Positions 481-64,000 of a DNA stretch of 64,000 bases are shown here, in pieces. Position 1 is the stretch's first letter. Each line of letters starts with the position of its first letter. Under the pieces are notes generated by a model. The model ran no database searches and was not told the DNA's origin. It saw only the letters and a list, made by a program, of their open reading frames with translations. The DNA comes from Muricea muricata (taxonomy: Eukaryota > Cnidaria > Anthozoa > Malacalcyonacea > Plexauridae). The translations under genes were made by a program, and so were the position numbers. The DNA is taken from positions 13,062,383 through 13,126,382 of the forward strand of contig OY979725.1 in NCBI GenBank assembly GCA_963855995.1. Reading direction: 5' to 3'.

Positions 481-854
481 CGGAGTAAGAATACGAATTA
501 CGGCTTGTTCGAAAGAGAAAAGAACGTGGTTTAAAACAAGTCCAAAATTGTTTTATAAGCTTCAGTAATTTAGAAATAATTAGACACAAAAGATGGGCTC
601 CGTTTTTTTATACACCCTGTACAGTGGCTGGAGTTGAACAAAATAGGTACAAAACGAACAATGGGTGTATTAAACATTTGCCACAGACTGGAACAGTACA
701 AAGTCCTTAAATTTCCCGGAGATATCGGGTAATGGCAGCACAAAGCCCTCACATTTCCCCTACATCTCGGATAAACATTACATTCAAAGTCCATACAGAG
801 TCATCAAATTGCCCCACCACAGCCCGGGGTCCCCAGGGTGGGAAAGCACCATAC

Positions 855-1328
855 CTTTCCATAGCATGTAAAACGACGACGCTTTTTCTCTGTCCTTCGT
901 TCGAAATCCGGTTGCACCACCATGCGAAATCTTTTATCCCATCCCTGCACGAAACTCCTGTCTTCTGCAAAACTTCGTAGTTTCTGGTACTGCATGATAT
1001 CCACTAGGACATCTACATCATCGTCCCATGCAATTATATCGCCTTTTTTGTGCAAGCCAAGCAAGGATCCGAGACCAATAACATAGGAAATATTATGCAA
1101 CTCTGCTGCCTTTTCCCAGTGGCGAAGTATGCCAGATAATGTCCCTCGGTATTTGTTTTCAGGGCAAGTGTACTGTCCAGTTTTCAACCCTCTGTTTACG
1201 CGGCCTGTTTTCAGATTTGAATTACTGTGAAGAATGCCATGCAATCGAAATAAGACCAGCCAAATTCCAGCACTTACAATCACGGTTACGATTAGGCGAC
1301 TATTTTTCGTCTTGACCCATGAATTCAT
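855..1328 (-). CDS. LicD/fukutin-like phosphotransferase, exon 1 (partial gene)
   Basis: This exon encodes 158 residues: a short cytoplasmic start, one membrane segment (about residues 11-29), a lumenal stem, and the nucleotidyltransferase core of the LicD family. The core shows VIGLGSLLG near residue 83 and WDDDVDVLVD at 101-110, whose acidic residues are the expected metal ligands. The layout is that of a type II Golgi protein adding a phospho-linked group to glycans; the substrate is unknown. A GTATGG donor follows the Lys codon at 855, exactly where the plus-strand paralogue (3472-4450) is spliced. The second exon is not found between 480 and 854; the foldback element at 1-480 may lie in the intron and the exon beyond the window. 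The Met at 1328 aligns with the start of the paralogue. Confidence 0.75.
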
Positions 1329-3471: not shown

Positions 3472-4450
3472 ATGTCCAAGATAGGACGACTATTTGTATG
3501 CGGAGTAACAGTCATTGCTTGTTTGTCGCTGCTTTTATTTCGACTAAATGATGATAGAAAGGCGAGTTTAAAGTTGAATCGAAGTGAGATACCAAAGCCA
3601 CTGGAATCGCAAAGCGGATTAAGGACATCTCTACAACTGCCTTATAAATGTCTCCCAAACAAGGAAAGGAAATCGTTTGCGGGCTTATTAGCTCATTGGC
3701 ATAAGTTGGCGACATTTTATAAAATCCCATATGTCATCTGTTGCGGTTCTTTGCTGGGTCAATACAGAGATGGAGATATCATACCTTGGGATGAAGATGT
3801 TGACGTCCTGGTGGACATTGAGAAGTTTAAGGCGCTCGAAGCTTTCGGAGAAAAGCGAAATTTCGAACAAGGAAATGATAATAAGTTTCGTTTTGTTGTA
3901 CAGCAAGAGTTTGAACACAGGAAAGAGGAAGATAGGATACGCTTGAGCTGTACAGGCAAGGTATGGTGGTTGGACTTTGTCCAAATTTTATACAGTCCTA
4001 AGACTTGGTAAAAACTTCATCCAGTCCTAAGACTTGATAACAACTACATCCAGTCCTATAACTTGATTAAATTTTGAACCATGTTCACTGTCATGGGTAC
4101 CTAAGCCAATAATAAACATTGAAAACAATAGAAGTTTATTAAATTTTTAGGTCGTGGACAAACAAATGGATAGCTGTTCTTTTATCAGCCCAATGGGCAG
4201 AGTAATTCAAGGTTATGTTCATTTGGACGTCTTTCCACATGTTATTCGTAAAAACCAAGGGAAAGTGCATGATCCCGACATGGGCGTCCACTACAACATC
4301 AGCGATTTCTTCCCTTTCAAAGAATGCGTTTTTATGAACGTAAAAACGTGGTGTCCACGCAACGTTCGTGGGGTTTTAGAGGACGCATATGATGATCTTA
4401 AACCAAAATATAACTGCGTCAACGGAAAATGGGTACGAAATGAGAGTTAA
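3472..4450 (+). CDS. LicD/fukutin-like phosphotransferase (two exons, complete)
   Basis: Exon 1 is 3472-3960 and exon 2 is 4151-4450. The 190-bp intron starts GTATGG and ends TTTTTAG, phase 0, giving 262 residues. A membrane segment at about residues 6-24 and a lumenal stem precede the LicD nucleotidyltransferase core: CCGSLLG near 90-96 and WDEDVDVLVD at 106-115. Exon 2 carries HLDVFPH and ISDFFPFKECVF, the usual C-terminal half of this family. LicD/fukutin proteins transfer phosphorylated groups (phosphocholine, ribitol phosphate) to glycans; the donor here is unknown. The protein is clearly paralogous to the minus-strand exon at 855-1328 (same splice position, same motifs). The start ATG at 3472 precedes the membrane anchor directly. 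Confidence 0.85.
3993..4079 (+). repeat. 29-bp tandem repeat in the LicD intron (about 3 units)
   Basis: The unit begins CAGTCCTAAGACTTG and occurs twice nearly intact and a third time diverged, wholly inside the intron of the 3472-4450 gene. Confidence 0.7.
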
Positions 4451-5197: not shown

Positions 5198-8182
5198 TCA
5201 CTTAAACAGACATAACTTGATATCAAGTGATATTTCCAAAACAGAATCTGTCGACTTTTCACCGTCTTTAGCACCATTTTCTTTGGATTGTTCATGTTCA
5301 TTTTTTGCTGAATTATCTACAGGTGTCAAACCATCTTTATTTTTTTCTTCATTTTTTGATGTCTCGCTCTCGACTGTGTTGACAGAATTTTCTTCACAAG
5401 ACAAGCCTTCCTCGTGTTTGACTTCATTATCACCATCACAAACATCACTATGATCACCATTACCGCAAACACCACCATCAACATAACTACCACCACTATC
5501 GCCACCATCATCATCACCACTATAATTAACACCACTGCCATTAACACCATCTCCACCGCCATTAGCACCATCACCACCACCACCATTAACAACATCACCA
5601 CCTCCATTAACACTATCACCACAAGCATCACTGACACCATCATTGACACCATCACCATTAACACCATTAAGACCATCATCACAACCACCATTAACACCAT
5701 CACCACCACCATTAACACCATCATGACCATTAACAATATCATCATCACCTCCATTAACATTATGACCACAAACATAATTAACACCATCATCACCACTACC
5801 ATTAACAACATCATCATTAACACCATCATCATTCACACCTTCACCACCATCACCATTAACACCACGATCACCACCACCAACCTTATCACCACCAATATTG
5901 GCACCACAAACATCACCACCATCATCTTCCTCTAGTTCACCATCCTTGACTAATGTATCGTTGTTCTTCTCGGCCACGGCAAAAATTGCTTCAAGACGAT
6001 CGCCACTTCTCGCTTGGGAATCTGATTCAGATTTCGAAACACCGTCACTTTCCTCTCTGTCATTTTCTGCATGTATACCTTCACCTTCTTCACTTTCATT
6101 TAGCAACGCCGAAAATTCATTCTCGGTACTATCAGATGGCTTCCCAGAACCCGATAGCTCAGCTTCCGGTATCGAGTTACCGGCGGACAAACATTCTGTG
6201 CTGATTTCTACACGCGTACCTTGGCACTCTTTATTGCAGAGTTCATTTGGTGATGCACTCTCGTTATCGTCAGATGGGTCCCTGGGATCTGATTTCAAGC
6301 TATCTTGCGGCGGAAAATCTTCTATTTTTCTTTCCCATTTCTCCACATTTGCATCGTTAATCTGCTGGACATACTTGACAGGGGGCAGACTAGCAGGAAA
6401 ATCAGTATCGAGTCGAACGGGGCTTTCTCGTTGCATAATCCGCATGTCCATCTTGTAAACATTTTCTTTGAGCAGCAAAAACGCCACGATGTGTTCATGG
6501 ATCCTTTCATAATCAAGTTCGCTCGGTAGCTCTTTAACAACAAGACAAAAATAGCTTTCATTTTCGTTTAATGTCTTTGCTTTCTTTCGCAACAACTCCA
6601 GGACTGAAATGCTGGAATTTTGAGCCGTAAACCATCCTCCAATCAAGCTTAAAGAGTACTCGTTTCGTGTCGCTTCAAGCCTGCACGAAAGCGCATTTTC
6701 CAATTGCCTTGGGTGGAGCCATTTCAACGTAGTAATATGCACAACAGCACCATGGCTGTGTGTATACAAACCATATATTTCACCATAACACTCGAAATGT
6801 TTGACATGCCGTATCTGTTCCTTCATATACTTGCCAATGCGTATTAATTCACCTTCGAACACGTACATCAAAGGACTATGAACGTGTGGCACACGAGAAA
6901 GATCCTCCACGCCACTCGACTGTGTTTCTGACTTTTCACAAGATGAACTTTCTTCATTTTCTAATTGAACACCTTCCGCCATGTTGGTGCCTTCCCTCCC
7001 TCGGCTGGTATTTTCCTTATTTTGTTCATTTTGCAATGCGAAGATTTTGTCGGGTGCAGAATGTTCAAGTGCTGCTTCTCTTTGCTTGGCGTTGTGGAAA
7101 TCTATTTCCTTGATATCTACCCAAACCTCACCATCACCACAGCAAACATAACCACCATTACATACACCACCATCTTCCTCTTCTTGTTCACCATTCTCGA
7201 CTGACCCACCGCTGTTCTTCTCGGCCACGGCAAAATTTGCTTGAAGATGATCAGCATTCTTTGCTTCGGAAACTAGTTCGGATTTCAAAACATCGTCATT
7301 TGCCCCTCTTCTATTTTCAGCACGTGTACTTTCGCATTCATTACTTTTACTCTCATGTGGCAACGCCGTAAATTCATTCTCGGTATGATCAGATGGCTTC
7401 CCAGAACTCGGTTCCTCAGCTTCCGGTGTCGAGTTACCGGTGGACAAACGTTCATCGCTATTTTCTCTTGTATTATTTCCTGCACGCGTATACTGGCATA
7501 CTTTATCATGGATTTCATTTAGTGATTCTCTCTTGTTGCCTTCAGATGGGTCTCTAGAATCTGATTTCAAGCTTTTATGAGGCGGAAAATCGTTTAATTC
7601 TTGCGACCAAACTTCCTCATTCGCGACATTATTTTGCTCGACATGCTCGACCGAAGGTAGATTAGCAGGAAAATCAGTATCGAGTCGAAACGGACTTTCT
7701 CGTTGCATAATTCGCATGTCCATCTTGTAAACATTTTCTTTGACCAGCAAAAACGTCACGATGTGCTCGTGGATCCTTTCATAATCAAATCTGGTTGGTA
7801 GCTCTTTAACAACAAGACAAAAATAGCTTTCATTTTCGTTTAATGTCTTCGCTTTCTTCTGCAACAACTCGAGGACTGAAATGCTTGAATTTTGAGCCGT
7901 AAACCATCCTCCAATCAAGCTTAAAGAGTACTCGTTTCGTGTCGCTTCAAGCATGCACGAAAGCGCATCTTCCAATTGCCTTGTGGTGAGCATTTTCAAC
8001 GTAGTAACATGCACAACAGCACCATGGCTGTGTGTATACAAACCATATATTTCACCATAACACTCGAAATATTTGACATACCGTATGTGTTCCTTCATAT
8101 ACTTGCCAATGCGTATTAATTCACCTTCGAACACGTACATCAAAGGACTATGAACGTGTGGCACATGAGAAAGATTGTCCAT
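5198..8182 (-). CDS. 994-residue protein with two tandem degenerate JAMM/MPN-like modules
   Basis: This is a single open frame with ATG at 8182. Module 1 (about residues 13-165) and module 2 (about 438-590) are close copies at DNA and protein level, so the gene arose by recent internal duplication. An acidic Ser/Glu-rich spacer follows each. Residues about 759-917 are an Asn/Gly/Asp/Val low-complexity tract. I see no signal peptide or membrane segment. The modules line up with the JAMM protein encoded just upstream (9033-9959): both start PLM, share E-x-x-G-x-x-x-G-L (Glu40 here), then I-G-x-W, then a hydrophobic strand. Where the enzyme has HSH and SxxD, this protein has FTA and no Ser/Asp, so it should not bind zinc. 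I infer a non-catalytic MPN-like scaffold; the homology rests on my own alignment and the function is unknown. Confidence 0.7.
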   Translation of the reverse strand: MDNLSHVPHVHSPLMYVFEGELIRIGKYMKEHIRYVKYFECYGEIYGLYTHSHGAVVHVTTLKMLTTRQLEDALSCMLEATRNEYSLSLIGGWFTAQNSSISVLELLQKKAKTLNENESYFCLVVKELPTRFDYERIHEHIVTFLLVKENVYKMDMRIMQRESPFRLDTDFPANLPSVEHVEQNNVANEEVWSQELNDFPPHKSLKSDSRDPSEGNKRESLNEIHDKVCQYTRAGNNTRENSDERLSTGNSTPEAEEPSSGKPSDHTENEFTALPHESKSNECESTRAENRRGANDDVLKSELVSEAKNADHLQANFAVAEKNSGGSVENGEQEEEDGGVCNGGYVCCGDGEVWVDIKEIDFHNAKQREAALEHSAPDKIFALQNEQNKENTSRGREGTNMAEGVQLENEESSSCEKSETQSSGVEDLSRVPHVHSPLMYVFEGELIRIGKYMKEQIRHVKHFECYGEIYGLYTHSHGAVVHITTLKWLHPRQLENALSCRLEATRNEYSLSLIGGWFTAQNSSISVLELLRKKAKTLNENESYFCLVVKELPSELDYERIHEHIVAFLLLKENVYKMDMRIMQRESPVRLDTDFPASLPPVKYVQQINDANVEKWERKIEDFPPQDSLKSDPRDPSDDNESASPNELCNKECQGTRVEISTECLSAGNSIPEAELSGSGKPSDSTENEFSALLNESEEGEGIHAENDREESDGVSKSESDSQARSGDRLEAIFAVAEKNNDTLVKDGELEEDDGGDVCGANIGGDKVGGGDRGVNGDGGEGVNDDGVNDDVVNGSGDDGVNYVCGHNVNGGDDDIVNGHDGVNGGGDGVNGGCDDGLNGVNGDGVNDGVSDACGDSVNGGGDVVNGGGGDGANGGGDGVNGSGVNYSGDDDGGDSGGSYVDGGVCGNGDHSDVCDGDNEVKHEEGLSCEENSVNTVESETSKNEEKNKDGLTPVDNSAKNEHEQSKENGAKDGEKSTDSVLEISLDIKLCLFK
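5430..5905 (-). repeat. Coding minisatellite (Asn-Gly-Asp-Val tract)
   Basis: On the plus strand this is a run of CACCATCACCATTAACAC-like units; on the coding strand it gives repeats such as VNGGGDGVNG. It stays open in the reading frame, so it is a variable-length C-terminal domain of the 5198-8182 protein. Confidence 0.85.
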
Positions 8183-9032
8183 ATTGGTCGACTGTATTTG
8201 CTACGACAATAATCGTATTGCAAATTAAAATAATGTAATGTTATTATATATGACGTAATTTTAAACCTTAGTCATATCGTTTTCGAGGAAATTTCGCAAT
8301 AGGGGGTACAAAGCCCAATCAACAATATCAATACGGAAATATTAGGAAAGCAAAAGTACTAGGAATTTACAATTGCTGCCCTTAACTGCCTACTGACCAA
8401 AACATTGCGACTGCATATAAAAGAGCGTTTCAATTGAGACAATTTAAAGACATGGGTTTATTATAGGACTGTCACGTTTATTCTGATGAGAGCATAATTG
8501 AAAATACAAAATGAATTTCTAAGACAGTCTTGAAATTACGGCATTAAGTTATGCAGTATTTACAACATTAGGAACTGTAGCATCTGTCATCTATGATTGA
8601 CTAAACATCTACGGCAGACTACAATATGTTTCGGATTATGTAAGATACACAGAATCCATGGAAGTCTTTAAGAATTATGTAATGAAAGTATAAACTGTGA
8701 TAGAGAACTAGATTTATATTGTGAGCAAGCAGGATCCTGAAGGGGTGACATGAGAGCTGGGAATTGCCATTTTTACTGGGAAATTAGAATATGGACATGG
8801 TTAAGATTTGAAGAAGACAGCGACTAGGAAGATGGGATTTGTGCACTTGGATAATGGGATTTAGTCAAAATTTTGGCTGGGAAACGGGACTCCTCACCCC
8901 CTTCAGGACCTGGAGTAAGTGCTAGGGTGACAACGGCCACCAGCGTGCATAGTATAGTGCTTAATCATTAAGGCTTTTGGTGCTAGTTATGCTAAGTGTG
9001 TACAGTGTGAATTGTTAAAAAATCTGATCCCT
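8183..9032. other. Intergenic with a small foldback element at about 8729-8912
   Basis: This is the gap between two same-strand single-exon genes. The left arm AGGATCCTGAAGGGGTGA pairs with TCACCCCCTTCAGGACCT on the right, a short MITE-like foldback of about 184 bp. No reading frame is worth calling. Confidence 0.5.
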
Positions 9033-9959
9033 TCAACACTGTGACATCTTCTGATATGCAGGTCGTTGTGTTAACGGCTGTTGTGATGATGTGACTGACT
9101 GATTCTGATCACGGTTATAGTTCTCTTCATTATCTCTATCTTGCGGGTGAGGTACAGAGGCGGCATTTGAAAATGTTCCCGATTTTCCGCCATCGTCTGG
9201 CAAGTTGGAATATCCACGCTTTCCAAATAAACCAAATCTTTTTTTGCCTTTTTTCGATTCATCTTTGGCCTTTTTCTCTGGTTTTCCTTTTTTTTGCTTT
9301 TTCTTTGATTTCATCTTTATTTTTTTACCCTTTTTCGGGGATGAATTTCGAGGAACATTCGAGCTTTCGTCATTTTCTGATGGCCGCAGTGTTGGCACGT
9401 GAACGTCGGAAACTGCTTCCGCACCTTCGCGTAACGTCGCTATGACATCGGGTTGTCTTCGATACGGATTCGGTCCGGTGAGCACCCGAGTTCGTACGCG
9501 ATCCATCTTCCCAGGAAGTCGTTCATTTCTATGCGCTGTAAACATATAACCGTTTATTTCAACTTGTCCAGTTGGAGTAATCGTCGCAATGATCAGTAGA
9601 AATCTCTTCAACCCATACCCAGGCATATTTCGCCAAACTGTCTCCCTATCTCCACTGCTCGGTTCGGGCAGATTTAGGCTGTGGTGCGAATGCCATTCGC
9701 CGATATTGCAAAGCCCTTTGGACAATGTTAAATATCCTCCGACATTTGTAAGATATTCTTCATCTTGAAAGAACGATGTGTGGGTACGATGGCAGTTTAT
9801 TCCAGGCCCGCTGACTATTTGAACAACAATCTCGCTTTCGCTTTGCCATAATCCAAACAAGTCTCCACCTGTCTCGCGATTTCTATGACCCAGAGTCGAG
9901 TTATAGATGAATTCTTTGTCCTCTGGGTAAATTAACATCAAAGGATCTTGCCCAGCCAT
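9033..9959 (-). CDS. JAMM/MPN+ (JAB-type) metalloprotease-like protein
   Basis: The single open frame encodes 308 residues. All expected ligands of a JAMM zinc protease are present: Glu29 in RETGGDLFG, His90 and His92 in GEWHSHH, and Ser101 and Asp104 in PSSGD. The HSH and PSSGD spacing and the ExGGDLFG start resemble the prokaryotic-type JAB domain more than the proteasome or CSN subunits; that is a judgement from motif shape. Such enzymes cleave isopeptide or peptide bonds at ubiquitin-like proteins. The domain spans about residues 5-165. A Lys-rich stretch (about 205-245) follows, possibly a nucleolar or nucleic-acid-binding tail, then a Ser/Gln-rich end. The 5198-8182 gene lies 850 bp downstream and seems to derive from the same fold. 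Further 5' exons cannot be excluded. Confidence 0.8.
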   Translation of the reverse strand: MAGQDPLMLIYPEDKEFIYNSTLGHRNRETGGDLFGLWQSESEIVVQIVSGPGINCHRTHTSFFQDEEYLTNVGGYLTLSKGLCNIGEWHSHHSLNLPEPSSGDRETVWRNMPGYGLKRFLLIIATITPTGQVEINGYMFTAHRNERLPGKMDRVRTRVLTGPNPYRRQPDVIATLREGAEAVSDVHVPTLRPSENDESSNVPRNSSPKKGKKIKMKSKKKQKKGKPEKKAKDESKKGKKRFGLFGKRGYSNLPDDGGKSGTFSNAASVPHPQDRDNEENYNRDQNQSVTSSQQPLTQRPAYQKMSQC

Positions 9960-35109: not shown

Positions 35110-38100
35110 TTAACAAGCAGACTCGCATAGGTAGGGAGTTTGATATTCATTGTCGCTGTGTTGATCTTCGCGATGAGCCGAAACCAAACATACCATGTTG
35201 TCTGCAAGCATGCTATTTTTAACTGCCAAATCGTAACTTTTTCGCCGCTCTACTTTCGCACCGTACGTCACAGCGTCTCCTTTGTTTAGTCGCGCGCCGT
35301 TCAGAATTGGCAAGAGGAATGTTACTGTTCTTTGTAGGACTGATGAGGCGCGTCTGTCCTCAGGCTCTCGAGGCACAGAATGTCTGGGGGTACTCAACTG
35401 GATGTCTGTACTAAATCTCCCAGGAGATCGGCGAAACATTGAAATCATACTATTACCACTGCCGCTGCGAGAACGAGATTTGTTCGTCGTGCGTGTAAAA
35501 CTTATTCGTATGGATGACTCTGTTCGGTCTCGCCTCAGGGTACATGAGCCCACGCAACAAAGACAGCGGTTGAACATCGTGTGCAAATCTTGCTGAAAGC
35601 GTTTTGTGACGAGGAAATACAAAAACGGATTTGTTAAGGCATTAATCGGAAAAACAAAGACCATTAAGAATTTTGAGGTCGGAACATCCATTAGCGGTTC
35701 TCCGTAAATGGCGACCAAAGAAGACATTGCAATGGGAGCCCAACACGCAAAATTTGTTAATACTATCACCGCCATTTTTCTCGCGATATTTAAGTCAGCG
35801 AACGTCACTCGTGCGGTGTGTTGAATATTCAAGTACATTTTAATGTAAGCAAAAAGTACGGCGAAAAAAGACGCGCCGTTACTGGCAAGTAGAAATGTGA
35901 CGTAAGCTTTGGATGCGAAACTGGTGACGTCAAATGGTAAACAGATTGCGACCTTGGTGTAGGAACTGATACCGGTCAGCGGTAGAGCCGCCAATACAAG
36001 CGCGGCTAGGAAACTGAGCACTAGCGAGATTGCTGTTTGTCGGACGGTCATCCACTTTGTTTGGTGAAGAGGAAATAAGATCGTGTAGTAACGTTCCAGA
36101 GTTATGATATTGAGCGTGAAAACCGATAACTCCGTGGAAAATATAGAGAGAAAGCCGGCGACTTTGCAGCCAATTCCATGTTGCCATTGCTTGGTATATT
36201 TACTATAATCTCCTCTTGTCCTGGCGTCGACTGCGGCGAGGATAATCAAATACACAGCCATACAAAGACTGGAGAAGGCTAGAGTGCACATCAACAGTTT
36301 ATGGTTGCTAACTTTGCGACGGTTCAGCAGAATGACAAACAATGTGACCAGGTTACCTATGACAGCACACACGGAAATGAACCATGCCGATACTCGAAGA
36401 GGCATCGAGCCTAGCAGGTCTTCGCAGGGGTTGAAATCATCGGGTTTTGGCCGACATATTACGCGCTTCTTTTGCAGTTGAGAGACTTCGATACGTCCCG
36501 TAGGCAAAGGTCCTAAATCACATGGATCAAGAGTGAATACCAATAAGGAATCATTATATGACAGCGTGATGAACTTATTTTGAGCTCGCGAGCGTGCTGT
36601 TCGCCAGTACATCTGAGTGGGAAACTCTAAGGAATGTTTCGTAGGGTAGAGAGAATAGCTGGAATGAATCGATGGAAATCTCGTAGGTGTTGCCAATAAT
36701 GTGGAAAGCGAACTAGCAGGTTTCTCGTCGCTTTGTGCTGCAGACGCTTGAAATTCTTTGGTAGCGTTTTTGGTACTGGTAGATTCTTCGCTGATTTTCG
36801 GCAATGATGTTTTGAGTTTCGTAGGCGAACTCCACGACGGTAGACTTGAAATCTTGTTATAATTGGATAAAGAGTTTGCAAGAGAAGAAACTGCAAACTT
36901 AGTGGTTGGTCGGCTTGTAAATATTGATGAAGGCGAGATGAAAGGTGCGGAAGTTAATCTGGTCGAAGGTTTCGCCCGAAGATTGGAGGGTGAACGATTA
37001 AGAGTTCCTTGTGGATTTATTGTGAAACGGGACGAAGGTGAGGGAGAAACCACATCAGTGGCGTACTTGCACTCCTGTAGCACGCCATGTTCTTGTCTAC
37101 CAACCGCCCAGGTATCGTCAAAAATGTTATCGGCGAAAGAACAACAGAGAAACTCGTATGTGAGCAAGAGATGTCTGATCTTTGGTAGTTGCGATGCGTG
37201 TAATTGCCAGAGATTATAAACGTCCTCTAAGTTAAGGTTGACAAGCTCTTCCAGACCCTTAACGGGAAGACTACGGATACGAGTTCCTTGTAAAGCCCTG
37301 GTGAGAGAACAAAGGTTTGTATTTTTTATATGGCAACAAATATTGTGTTATTTTCTTTTAAATTCCGCTGGTAATTTATTGCTATGCTTTCATTTTATAA
37401 GAAAAGTAAATTTTTGGATAATTTTAACGCCTAGTATCATAATGTATGATTTAGCGTGATGTTTTATTGCATGGCATGGCATGGTATGACATGGGAAGGT
37501 TGGTATGGTATGGTATGGTATGGTATGGTATGGTATGGTATGGTATGGTATGGTATGGTATGGTATGGTATGGTATGGTATGGTATGGTATGGTATGGTA
37601 TGGTATGGTATGGTATGGTATGGTATGGTATGGTATGGTATGGTATGGTATGTTATGGTATGGCATGGGAAGGTTGGTATGGTATGGTATGGTATGGTAC
37701 GGTACGGTACGGTACGGTACGGTACGGTACGGTACGGTACGGTACGGTATGGTATGGTATGGTATGGTATGGTATGGTATGGTATGGTAAATGAAAACTC
37801 ACAGTGTATGAAGTTGAACACCGTCAAAAGCGTCTTCTTCTATGTGATCCAGATTTGAATGCTCCATCAACCTGTGTAAAGTTTGGCTGTTAACTAAGGT
37901 TTCAATTTCGTTTTCTTTATTCGACAAAGTTAAAAAACAAAGCACCTATTACTTACAGGTATTTCAAGTTTTTTGCGTGTTGAAAAACACCATTAACAAG
38001 GCGCTTGATTTTTGATCTTTTAAGGTATCTAAAAATGAAGAAAAAACCGCTTAGAATTGTTTTGCTGATCAATGGCAATTTAGGATTATCCTTGTTTTCG

Positions 38101-41034: not shown

Positions 41035-64000
<22,966 letters not shown>

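Follow-up and report, generated by a model that had tools for sequence, protein, structure and literature searches.

In the cnidarian Muricea muricata (Plexauridae) we find two neighbouring genes which, in our judgement, probably belong as scattered members to a ubiquitin-like conjugation system of bacteria, gained horizontally and then expanded by the animal lineage. They lie within a stretch of 64,000 nucleotides (assembly GCA_963855995.1, contig OY979725.1, positions 13,062,383 to 13,126,382 of the forward strand), referred to here as the window; positions within it count from its first letter, and positions on the contig are prefixed C10. One gene, P0002, encodes an intact JAB domain of the bacterial subfamily found in cassettes of JAB, E2-like protein, small protein and E1, and all four cassette parts have homologues on the same chromosome-scale contig. 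The other gene, P0001, encodes a tandem pair of JAB-derived modules without HxH and SxxD. Judged from sequence, the animal seems to have taken over the whole bacterial system. A preliminary description of this DNA had guessed at a ubiquitin-like system, possibly bacterial in origin, with both active and inactive JABs, which appears largely right: relatives of the whole cassette are present in the genome, while the window pair is not the whole system, with E1, E2 and tag about 1.5 Mb away.

The ubiquitin systems of eukaryotes are generally held to be of archaeal descent. Such an origin is stated in the title of PMC4327156. In the genome considered here an entire bacterial conjugation cassette seems to have arrived at a later date and then to have diversified, several of the JABs having lost catalysis. 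The case opens the origin and the rewiring of ubiquitin-like systems to direct tests in a living animal, and it touches on whether animal immunity has co-opted machinery related to anti-phage systems.

P0002 is an intact JAB protein of a bacterial subfamily

Features of P0002 in the window, as open reading frame (ORF) and parts:

9033..9959, minus strand: P0002, single-exon ORF of 308 aa; bacterial-type JAB/JAMM domain and Lys-rich tail
9405..9959, minus strand: residues 1-185, JAB domain with the segment matching the family's ESPxR end; Glu29, His90, His92, Ser101, Asp104
9210..9359, minus strand: residues 201-250, Lys-rich basic stretch, net charge +20

The places and lengths reported earlier for the two ORFs (5198-8182, minus, 994 aa; 9033-9959, minus, 308 aa) are correct, and so are the active-site residues named for P0002: Glu29, His90, His92, Ser101 and Asp104 are invariant when it is aligned with 39 bacterial relatives (40 sequences; alignment A5, using 39 of 80 bacterial loci), and the JAMM motif (Glu, HxH, SxxD) is complete. 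The AlphaFold2 model of residues 1-185 has a predicted local distance difference test score (pLDDT) of 92.7 and a predicted template-modelling score (pTM) of 0.88, with an order of elements that we take to be that of JAMM. P0002 matches PADLOC JAB profiles at 2.2e-14, Pfam Prok-JAB at 22.6 bits (cut-off 25) and the NCBIfam Cap3 profile at 24.8 bits (2.2e-5; cut-off 200). Since the last two scores stay under their cut-offs, P0002 is a JAB and not a Cap3 by that standard, and we set Cap3 membership aside on the NCBIfam equivalog cut-off. Nor was a cGAS/DncV-like enzyme recognised by eye near P0002 among window ORFs of at least 80 aa, ten of them scanned with Pfam, a survey that split genes could escape.

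The bacterial character suspected earlier is borne out by the relatives of P0002. A scan of a genome collection described as covering 84,980 species yielded 141 candidate stretches, of which 96 were confirmed and 80 kept; these bacterial loci are 31-46% identical to P0002, which is nested among them. The spacing HxH-x8-SxxD, common to P0002, its Bradyrhizobium relative P0003 and other relatives, is one residue longer than in the CBASS (cyclic-oligonucleotide-based anti-phage signalling system) JAB P0004, and P0002 carries its Lys-rich tail where the bacterial relatives have a C-terminal region of their own. No PDB chain to which P0002 or the profile made from it gave a match is named as a eukaryotic MPN protein, the best being 9ild 'Peptidase' at 3e-7. 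P0002 had no match in phages, and among viral contigs three pattern stretches for each query (P0001 and P0002) yielded no confirmed match.

The closest bacterial relatives of P0002 sit in cassettes of JAB, E2-like protein, small protein and E1, mostly in Cyanobacteriota, Bacteroidota and Actinomycetota. Across the 55 close loci (L005-L059) an E1 is present in 53, an E2-like protein in 54 and a small protein in 51, the last at a loose cut-off (E 0.01); where at least 2.3 kb of downstream sequence is available (51 loci), the counts are 51, 51 and 49. Nine of the 51 best small-protein matches look by eye like the ends of E1 ORFs (L015, L017, L029, L038, L039, L041, L048, L051 and L059), so about 42 loci is the safer figure. 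The proteins of about 60 aa encoded between E2 and E1 are candidates for a minimal tag; most of them carry [DE]GF[AF] or a near variant at the C-terminus, and a Pfam scan of one of them gave no match. In the sections of PMC10097602 drawn on here, the conserved C-terminal Gly or Ala of CBASS cGAS is the conjugated end, a pattern which the GFA end of the small proteins would fit.

Homologues of all four cassette parts lie together on the same contig

Relatives of the four parts are found 1.5 Mb from the window pair in a region of 160 kb (C10:11,410,000-11,569,999). Beside the window we read 280 kb of the 453 Mb genome. The region holds one E1, 12 E2-like ORFs, one tag-like ORF, ten JABs with HSH intact and five without, among TRIM-type genes. 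Its JAB ORFs are as follows (start positions on C10):

[E/Q]TGG and WHSHH in one ORF (n=7): 11428233, 11429486, 11431008, 11439443, 11485012, 11522581, 11535247
Read as split over two neighbouring ORFs (n=3): 11447352/11449400, 11534139/11532270, 11540940/11542439
JAB-like, LWCSG or FWFYG for WHSH (n=3): 11494621, 11497736, 11501740
P0001-type, HSH-less (n=2): 11539538, 11553486

The family search led to a JAB paralogue at C10:11,485,153, which has 37% identity with P0002 across 253 aligned positions; this paralogue (C10:11485012) has a GT-AG intron within the coding region matching P0002, where P0002 has none. The same whole-genome search gave two places although ten JABs were later read, so genome searches here are lower bounds.

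The animal E1, joined by hand from three exons into 452 aa, has introns with canonical GT-AG ends. It shares 57% of residues with a Hormoscilla E1 across 304 aa and 45% with a Prochloron E1 across 440 aa. It matches ThiF at 2.8e-37, and its stronger matches in the PDB are to MoeB, ThiF and UBA5 (8.7e-15 to about 1e-13). One E2-like ORF is 46% identical to a Prochloron E2-like protein, and the ICH/ICF cysteine is kept in all ten of the E2-like ORFs that were read, out of 12. The tag-like ORF 11490490 is 44% identical over query residues 1-61 (tblastn E 4e-10). Strict adjacency of the four genes is not found: a JAB lies about 1 kb and the tag 1.6 kb from the E1, and the nearest E2-like ORF is about 22 kb away. 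In a control of 184 kb (the window, 100 kb before it and 20 kb after it) the E1, E2 and tag profiles found nothing at E 1e-3, and the JAB profile found P0002, itself a profile member, and P0001 alone; hmmsearch E-values in these scans of cluster and control are for small ORF sets.

Other ORFs of the region were noted in passing (L numbers are loci of our collection). RING and B-box TRIM-type ORFs stand amid the E1, E2 and JAB genes at C10:11465211 and 11466028 (L103, by Pfam) and at C10:11480654 (L099) and 11443416 (L107), the latter two by eye. Protein-kinase-like ORFs, also by eye, lie amid JABs at C10:11537751 (L108), 11546518 and 11547828 (L110); an ORF with a match to DUF294/NTP_transf_2-like (nucleotidyltransferase) domains at C10:11526329 (L106) is near ORFs that look TPR-like; and a low-complexity, acidic-looking ORF of 625 aa next to JAB genes at C10:11435709 (L109) recalls the spacers of P0001. 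An orphan exon at C10:11467457-11468140 (L103) resembles the tail of JAB 11485012, and no exon for a JAB domain was located next to it. Far from the cluster, an exon with GWYHSHPTYQPDPSVRD at C10:372277-372489 (L086) resembles an ordinary eukaryotic MPN+ protein and is matched by Prok-JAB.

P0001 consists of two JAB-derived modules

Features of P0001 in the window:

5198..8182, minus strand: P0001, single-exon ORF of 994 aa; two HSH-less JAB-derived modules and acidic spacers
7655..8182, minus strand: module 1, residues 1-176; IGGWFTA for IGEWHSH, Glu40 kept, RESPFR near its end
6905..7654, minus strand: acidic spacer 1, residues 177-426, net charge -30
6383..6904, minus strand: module 2, residues 427-600, HSH-less, 88-89% identical to module 1
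5201..6382, minus strand: acidic spacer 2 and Asn/Gly/Asp-rich tail, residues 601-994

As aligned, the modules span residues 1-172 and 427-596. The duplication seen earlier, with FTA in place of HSH and SxxD missing, is real (89% identity between modules, 71% over a longer repeated unit around them), Glu40 is present, and the RESPFR near the end of module 1 resembles the bacterial ESPxR. The acidic spacers and Asn/Gly/Asp tail are likewise as reported, with a net charge of -101 for the protein and the Asn/Gly/Asp-rich stretch at about residues 741-920. At synonymous sites the copies diverge by 0.12 within the domain and by 0.36 within the linker, on which grounds we rejected a haplotype artefact.

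Searched against the Pfam, NCBIfam, PADLOC and PDB libraries, P0001 gave no JAB match; a coronavirus DPUP match (2e-4, 17 residues, under the cut-off) and matches to PapD_N and TNP-like profiles, short and under cut-off, were dismissed. The case for kinship with JABs comes from profile-profile comparison, in which E-values are those of single comparisons. Against 84 bacterial JABs plus P0002, hhalign aligns the modules end to end over 148 columns (score 28.6, E 3.5e-4, probability 37%); none of 400 column shuffles reached this score (best 22.7), the reversed profile gave 17.8, and 76 unrelated proteins scored at most 16.8 against the JAB profile. Without P0002 the bacterial profile gives E 1e-4 (57%, 147 columns), the close subfamily of 55 gives 1.6e-4 (50%), and a profile with the animal JABs added gives 1.4e-5 (80%, 147 columns), its score of 37.5 being reached by none of 1000 column shuffles (best 29.8). 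Control comparisons with E1 and E2 profiles gave nothing. The alignment pairs FECYGEIYGL with RETGGDLFGL, IGGWFTA with IGEWHSH, and RESPFR with the family's ESPxR end.

An ORF of the cluster bridges the two families. C10:11539538 is 36% identical to a P0001 module over 47 residues by BLASTP (E 5e-6) and itself matches JABs by hhalign (E 2.7e-7, 44 columns); with this ORF added to the modules, the match to the JAB profile rises to E 1.7e-10 (probability 97%, 144 columns). A second ORF, 11553486, is 31% identical to the module (3e-4) and includes ESPFR. A module search of the whole genome returned the window copies alone, so both bridges are remote. A joint JAB profile finds P0001 at E 2e-8 by hmmsearch among the ORFs of the 184 kb, and when the secondary structure of the modules is predicted with no JAB sequence as input, it coincides with that of P0002 at 59.5% of positions, compared with at most 50% in 169 shifted alignments. 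By these comparisons P0001 is made of two JAB-derived modules that lack the histidines and SxxD. The earlier view of the protein as a duplicated, HSH-less JAB relative is thereby upheld; going by its residues it would be a dead relative rather than a member of the family by activity.

Origin and placement in trees

The JAB and E1 trees were built from bacterial rows and rows of this genome. In a first tree of 85 rows P0002 forms a long branch within the bacterial family (95/97). A second, which takes bacterial rows from 69 of 84 loci and eight HSH-intact animal JABs out of 11, omitting three split genes and those without HSH, joins the eight animal JABs as one group (98/88) within a group with 55 bacterial rows (100/100); P0002 groups with the intron-bearing paralogue 11485012 (88/73), both on long branches. 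The animal E1, set among 67 bacterial E1s picked by length and score, is placed with cyanobacterial and actinobacterial E1s (87/90), in a group of 50 (94/84) inside 63 rows (100/100). One transfer of the animal JABs followed by expansion would be the simplest reading. Because P0002 lacks the intron of its paralogue and P0001 is one open frame, both are probably products of retroposition or of intron loss.

The window is animal DNA, with dynein heavy-chain exons, two rhodopsin-type G-protein-coupled receptors (GPCRs) and two LicD-type ORFs, and it contains no N; the assembly comprises 453 Mb in 74 contigs, C10 being a contig of 13.9 Mb. The LicD-type ORFs lie near the pair, at 804-1328 (minus) and 3472-4450 (plus), with Pfam matches at 804-1328 and 3472-4011. 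Long ACCAT/ATGGT-type tandem repeats open several frames at 37390-37858, 46332-47035 and 47820-48350.

Weighing the interpretation

Several observations weigh against our interpretation. The modules model poorly in AlphaFold2, they gave nothing against P0002 alone, 25 distant JABs or two Cap3-like JABs, and 15 of the 148 positions aligned with P0002 pair helix with strand. The duplicated modules are under only moderate purifying selection, with a ratio of non-synonymous to synonymous change (Ka/Ks) of 0.47 (P 0.047), and the two window copies were all that the whole-genome module search returned, itself a lower bound. On the side of the cluster, the HSH-intact JAB 11439443 has Gln for the catalytic Glu, and the 12 E2-like ORFs include two short ones, of 58 and 111 aa. 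In Pfam the bacterial E2-like proteins give RWD, UQ_con and Prok-E2_E, all under cut-off, and of the animal ones one gives RWD at 19.8 bits (cut-off 22.8) and a second nothing; a PDB search of one animal E2-like ORF found nothing significant, so that the E2 label derives from likeness to the bacterial cassette proteins. The animal tag has no Pfam match, and its ORF runs long past GFF, which makes its mature end a guess. The long branch of P0002 makes its placement beside any one bacterial sister tentative.

In one rival reading the JABs have kept their fold but turned to host ubiquitin or some other modifier of the host, so that P0002 in its present role would have nothing to do with the imported E1, E2 and tag. 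This would suit the divergence of P0002, with its long branch and its Lys-rich tail in place of the bacterial C-terminal region, the distance of about 1.5 Mb to E1, E2 and tag, and the RING and B-box ORFs within the cluster. We nevertheless hold it unlikely, as the E1, the E2-like ORFs and the tag are kept with conserved motifs in the same genome and ten HSH-intact JABs lie near them. Slightly less likely still is the idea that P0001 and P0002 are decaying, functionless retrocopies and that the cluster alone is the live system. Both genes are intronless where paralogue C10:11485012 has an intron in the matching region, and Ka/Ks between the P0001 repeats is 0.47 to 0.78; yet frames of 308 and 994 codons have stayed open, P0002 keeps all its catalytic residues, and the P0001 domain has fewer changes per non-synonymous than per synonymous site.

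We consider it very improbable that the P0001 modules are no relatives of JABs and share PLM, ExxGxxxGL and IGxW with them by chance. The empty library searches would agree with chance likeness, as would a BLASTP of P0001 against P0002 that gave nothing of note and the AlphaFold2 model of the two modules, a prediction proposed beforehand, which at pLDDT 41.6 is weak and too poor for use; the shuffles (0/400 and 0/1000), the unrelated proteins scoring at most 16.8 against 28.6 for the modules, and the match strengthened by a bridging ORF that itself resembles JABs speak decidedly for kinship. Bacterial contamination or a mis-assembled chimera, to which one might turn on account of the bacterial-looking cassette parts, is the least credible of all and was rejected: the contig is 13.9 Mb long with no N in the window or the stretches counted, the E1 and a JAB have GT-AG introns, dynein, GPCR, RING and B-box genes share the contig, and ten JABs and twelve E2-like ORFs form a diverged cluster. 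We retain the horizontally gained and expanded conjugation system as the best explanation of the window pair.

A possible mechanism

Under this explanation, the E1 would adenylate the C-terminus of the tag protein of about 60 aa, and the E2, via its conserved ICH/ICF cysteine, would hand the tag to targets. JABs like P0002 might trim the C-terminal extension of the tag precursor, cut the tag off its targets, or both, with zinc presumably held by His90, His92 and Asp104 and Glu29 acting as the base. P0001, presumably a catalytically dead, bivalent paralogue, most likely would bind the tag or its JAB or E2 partners without cutting, perhaps as a scaffold, decoy or regulator. The RING and B-box ORFs in the cluster might be ligases, and one may speculate that the acidic P0001 (-101) and the Lys-rich stretch of P0002 (+20) attract each other. 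Taken to its full extent, the proposal would be that the animal runs a complete second ubiquitin-like system with an E1, up to 12 E2s, a 60-residue tag ending in GF[A/F] and JABs, possibly with TRIM-type RING ligases as an innate immune module, in which dead tandem JABs such as P0001 serve as readers or decoys; to this wider proposal we give somewhat less than an even chance.

Comparison with known systems

No animal with a bacterial-type E1-E2-JAB cassette is reported in the titles and abstract openings of the open-access papers listed as matches, a set that takes in neither preprints nor most papers behind subscription. Candidate counterparts of the bacterial cassettes are rows 6a-6e of Iyer et al. 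(2006; PMC1779556). The animal genes share with the bacterial JAB-E2-small protein-E1 cassettes the JAB subfamily and its active-site spacing, and their E1, E2-like and small proteins are homologous. The differences are in arrangement: the bacterial genes are adjacent, whereas those of the animal are dispersed, intron-bearing and expanded, with HSH-less JABs and added tails.

CBASS Cap3, as presented in the parts of PMC10097602 consulted, is similarly a JAB isopeptidase beside an E1/E2, and P0002 matches its profile weakly (2.2e-5); the HxH-to-S spacing of P0002, one residue longer, and a score of 24.8 bits against a cut-off of 200 set the two apart. The Bil and Bub systems, as far as the excerpts of PMC11354881 and PMC13373217 go, also combine a bacterial E1, E2, JAB and ubiquitin-like protein. 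The animal E1 matches Citrobacter BubCD weakly (8e-5), and MoeB, ThiF and UBA5 better. BilA, according to the same excerpts, has two ubiquitin-like domains, whereas the tag here is of about 60 residues and without a Pfam match, its bacterial counterparts mostly having GFA or GFF as their last residues.

Eukaryotes have pairs of active (MPN+) and inactive (MPN-) proteins of their own in Rpn11/Rpn8, CSN5/CSN6 and BRCC36/Abraxas. Like these, the two window genes would represent active and inactive proteins of a predicted JAMM fold within one genome; unlike them, P0001 and P0002 are of the bacterial subfamily, and a heterodimer of the two would be hypothetical.

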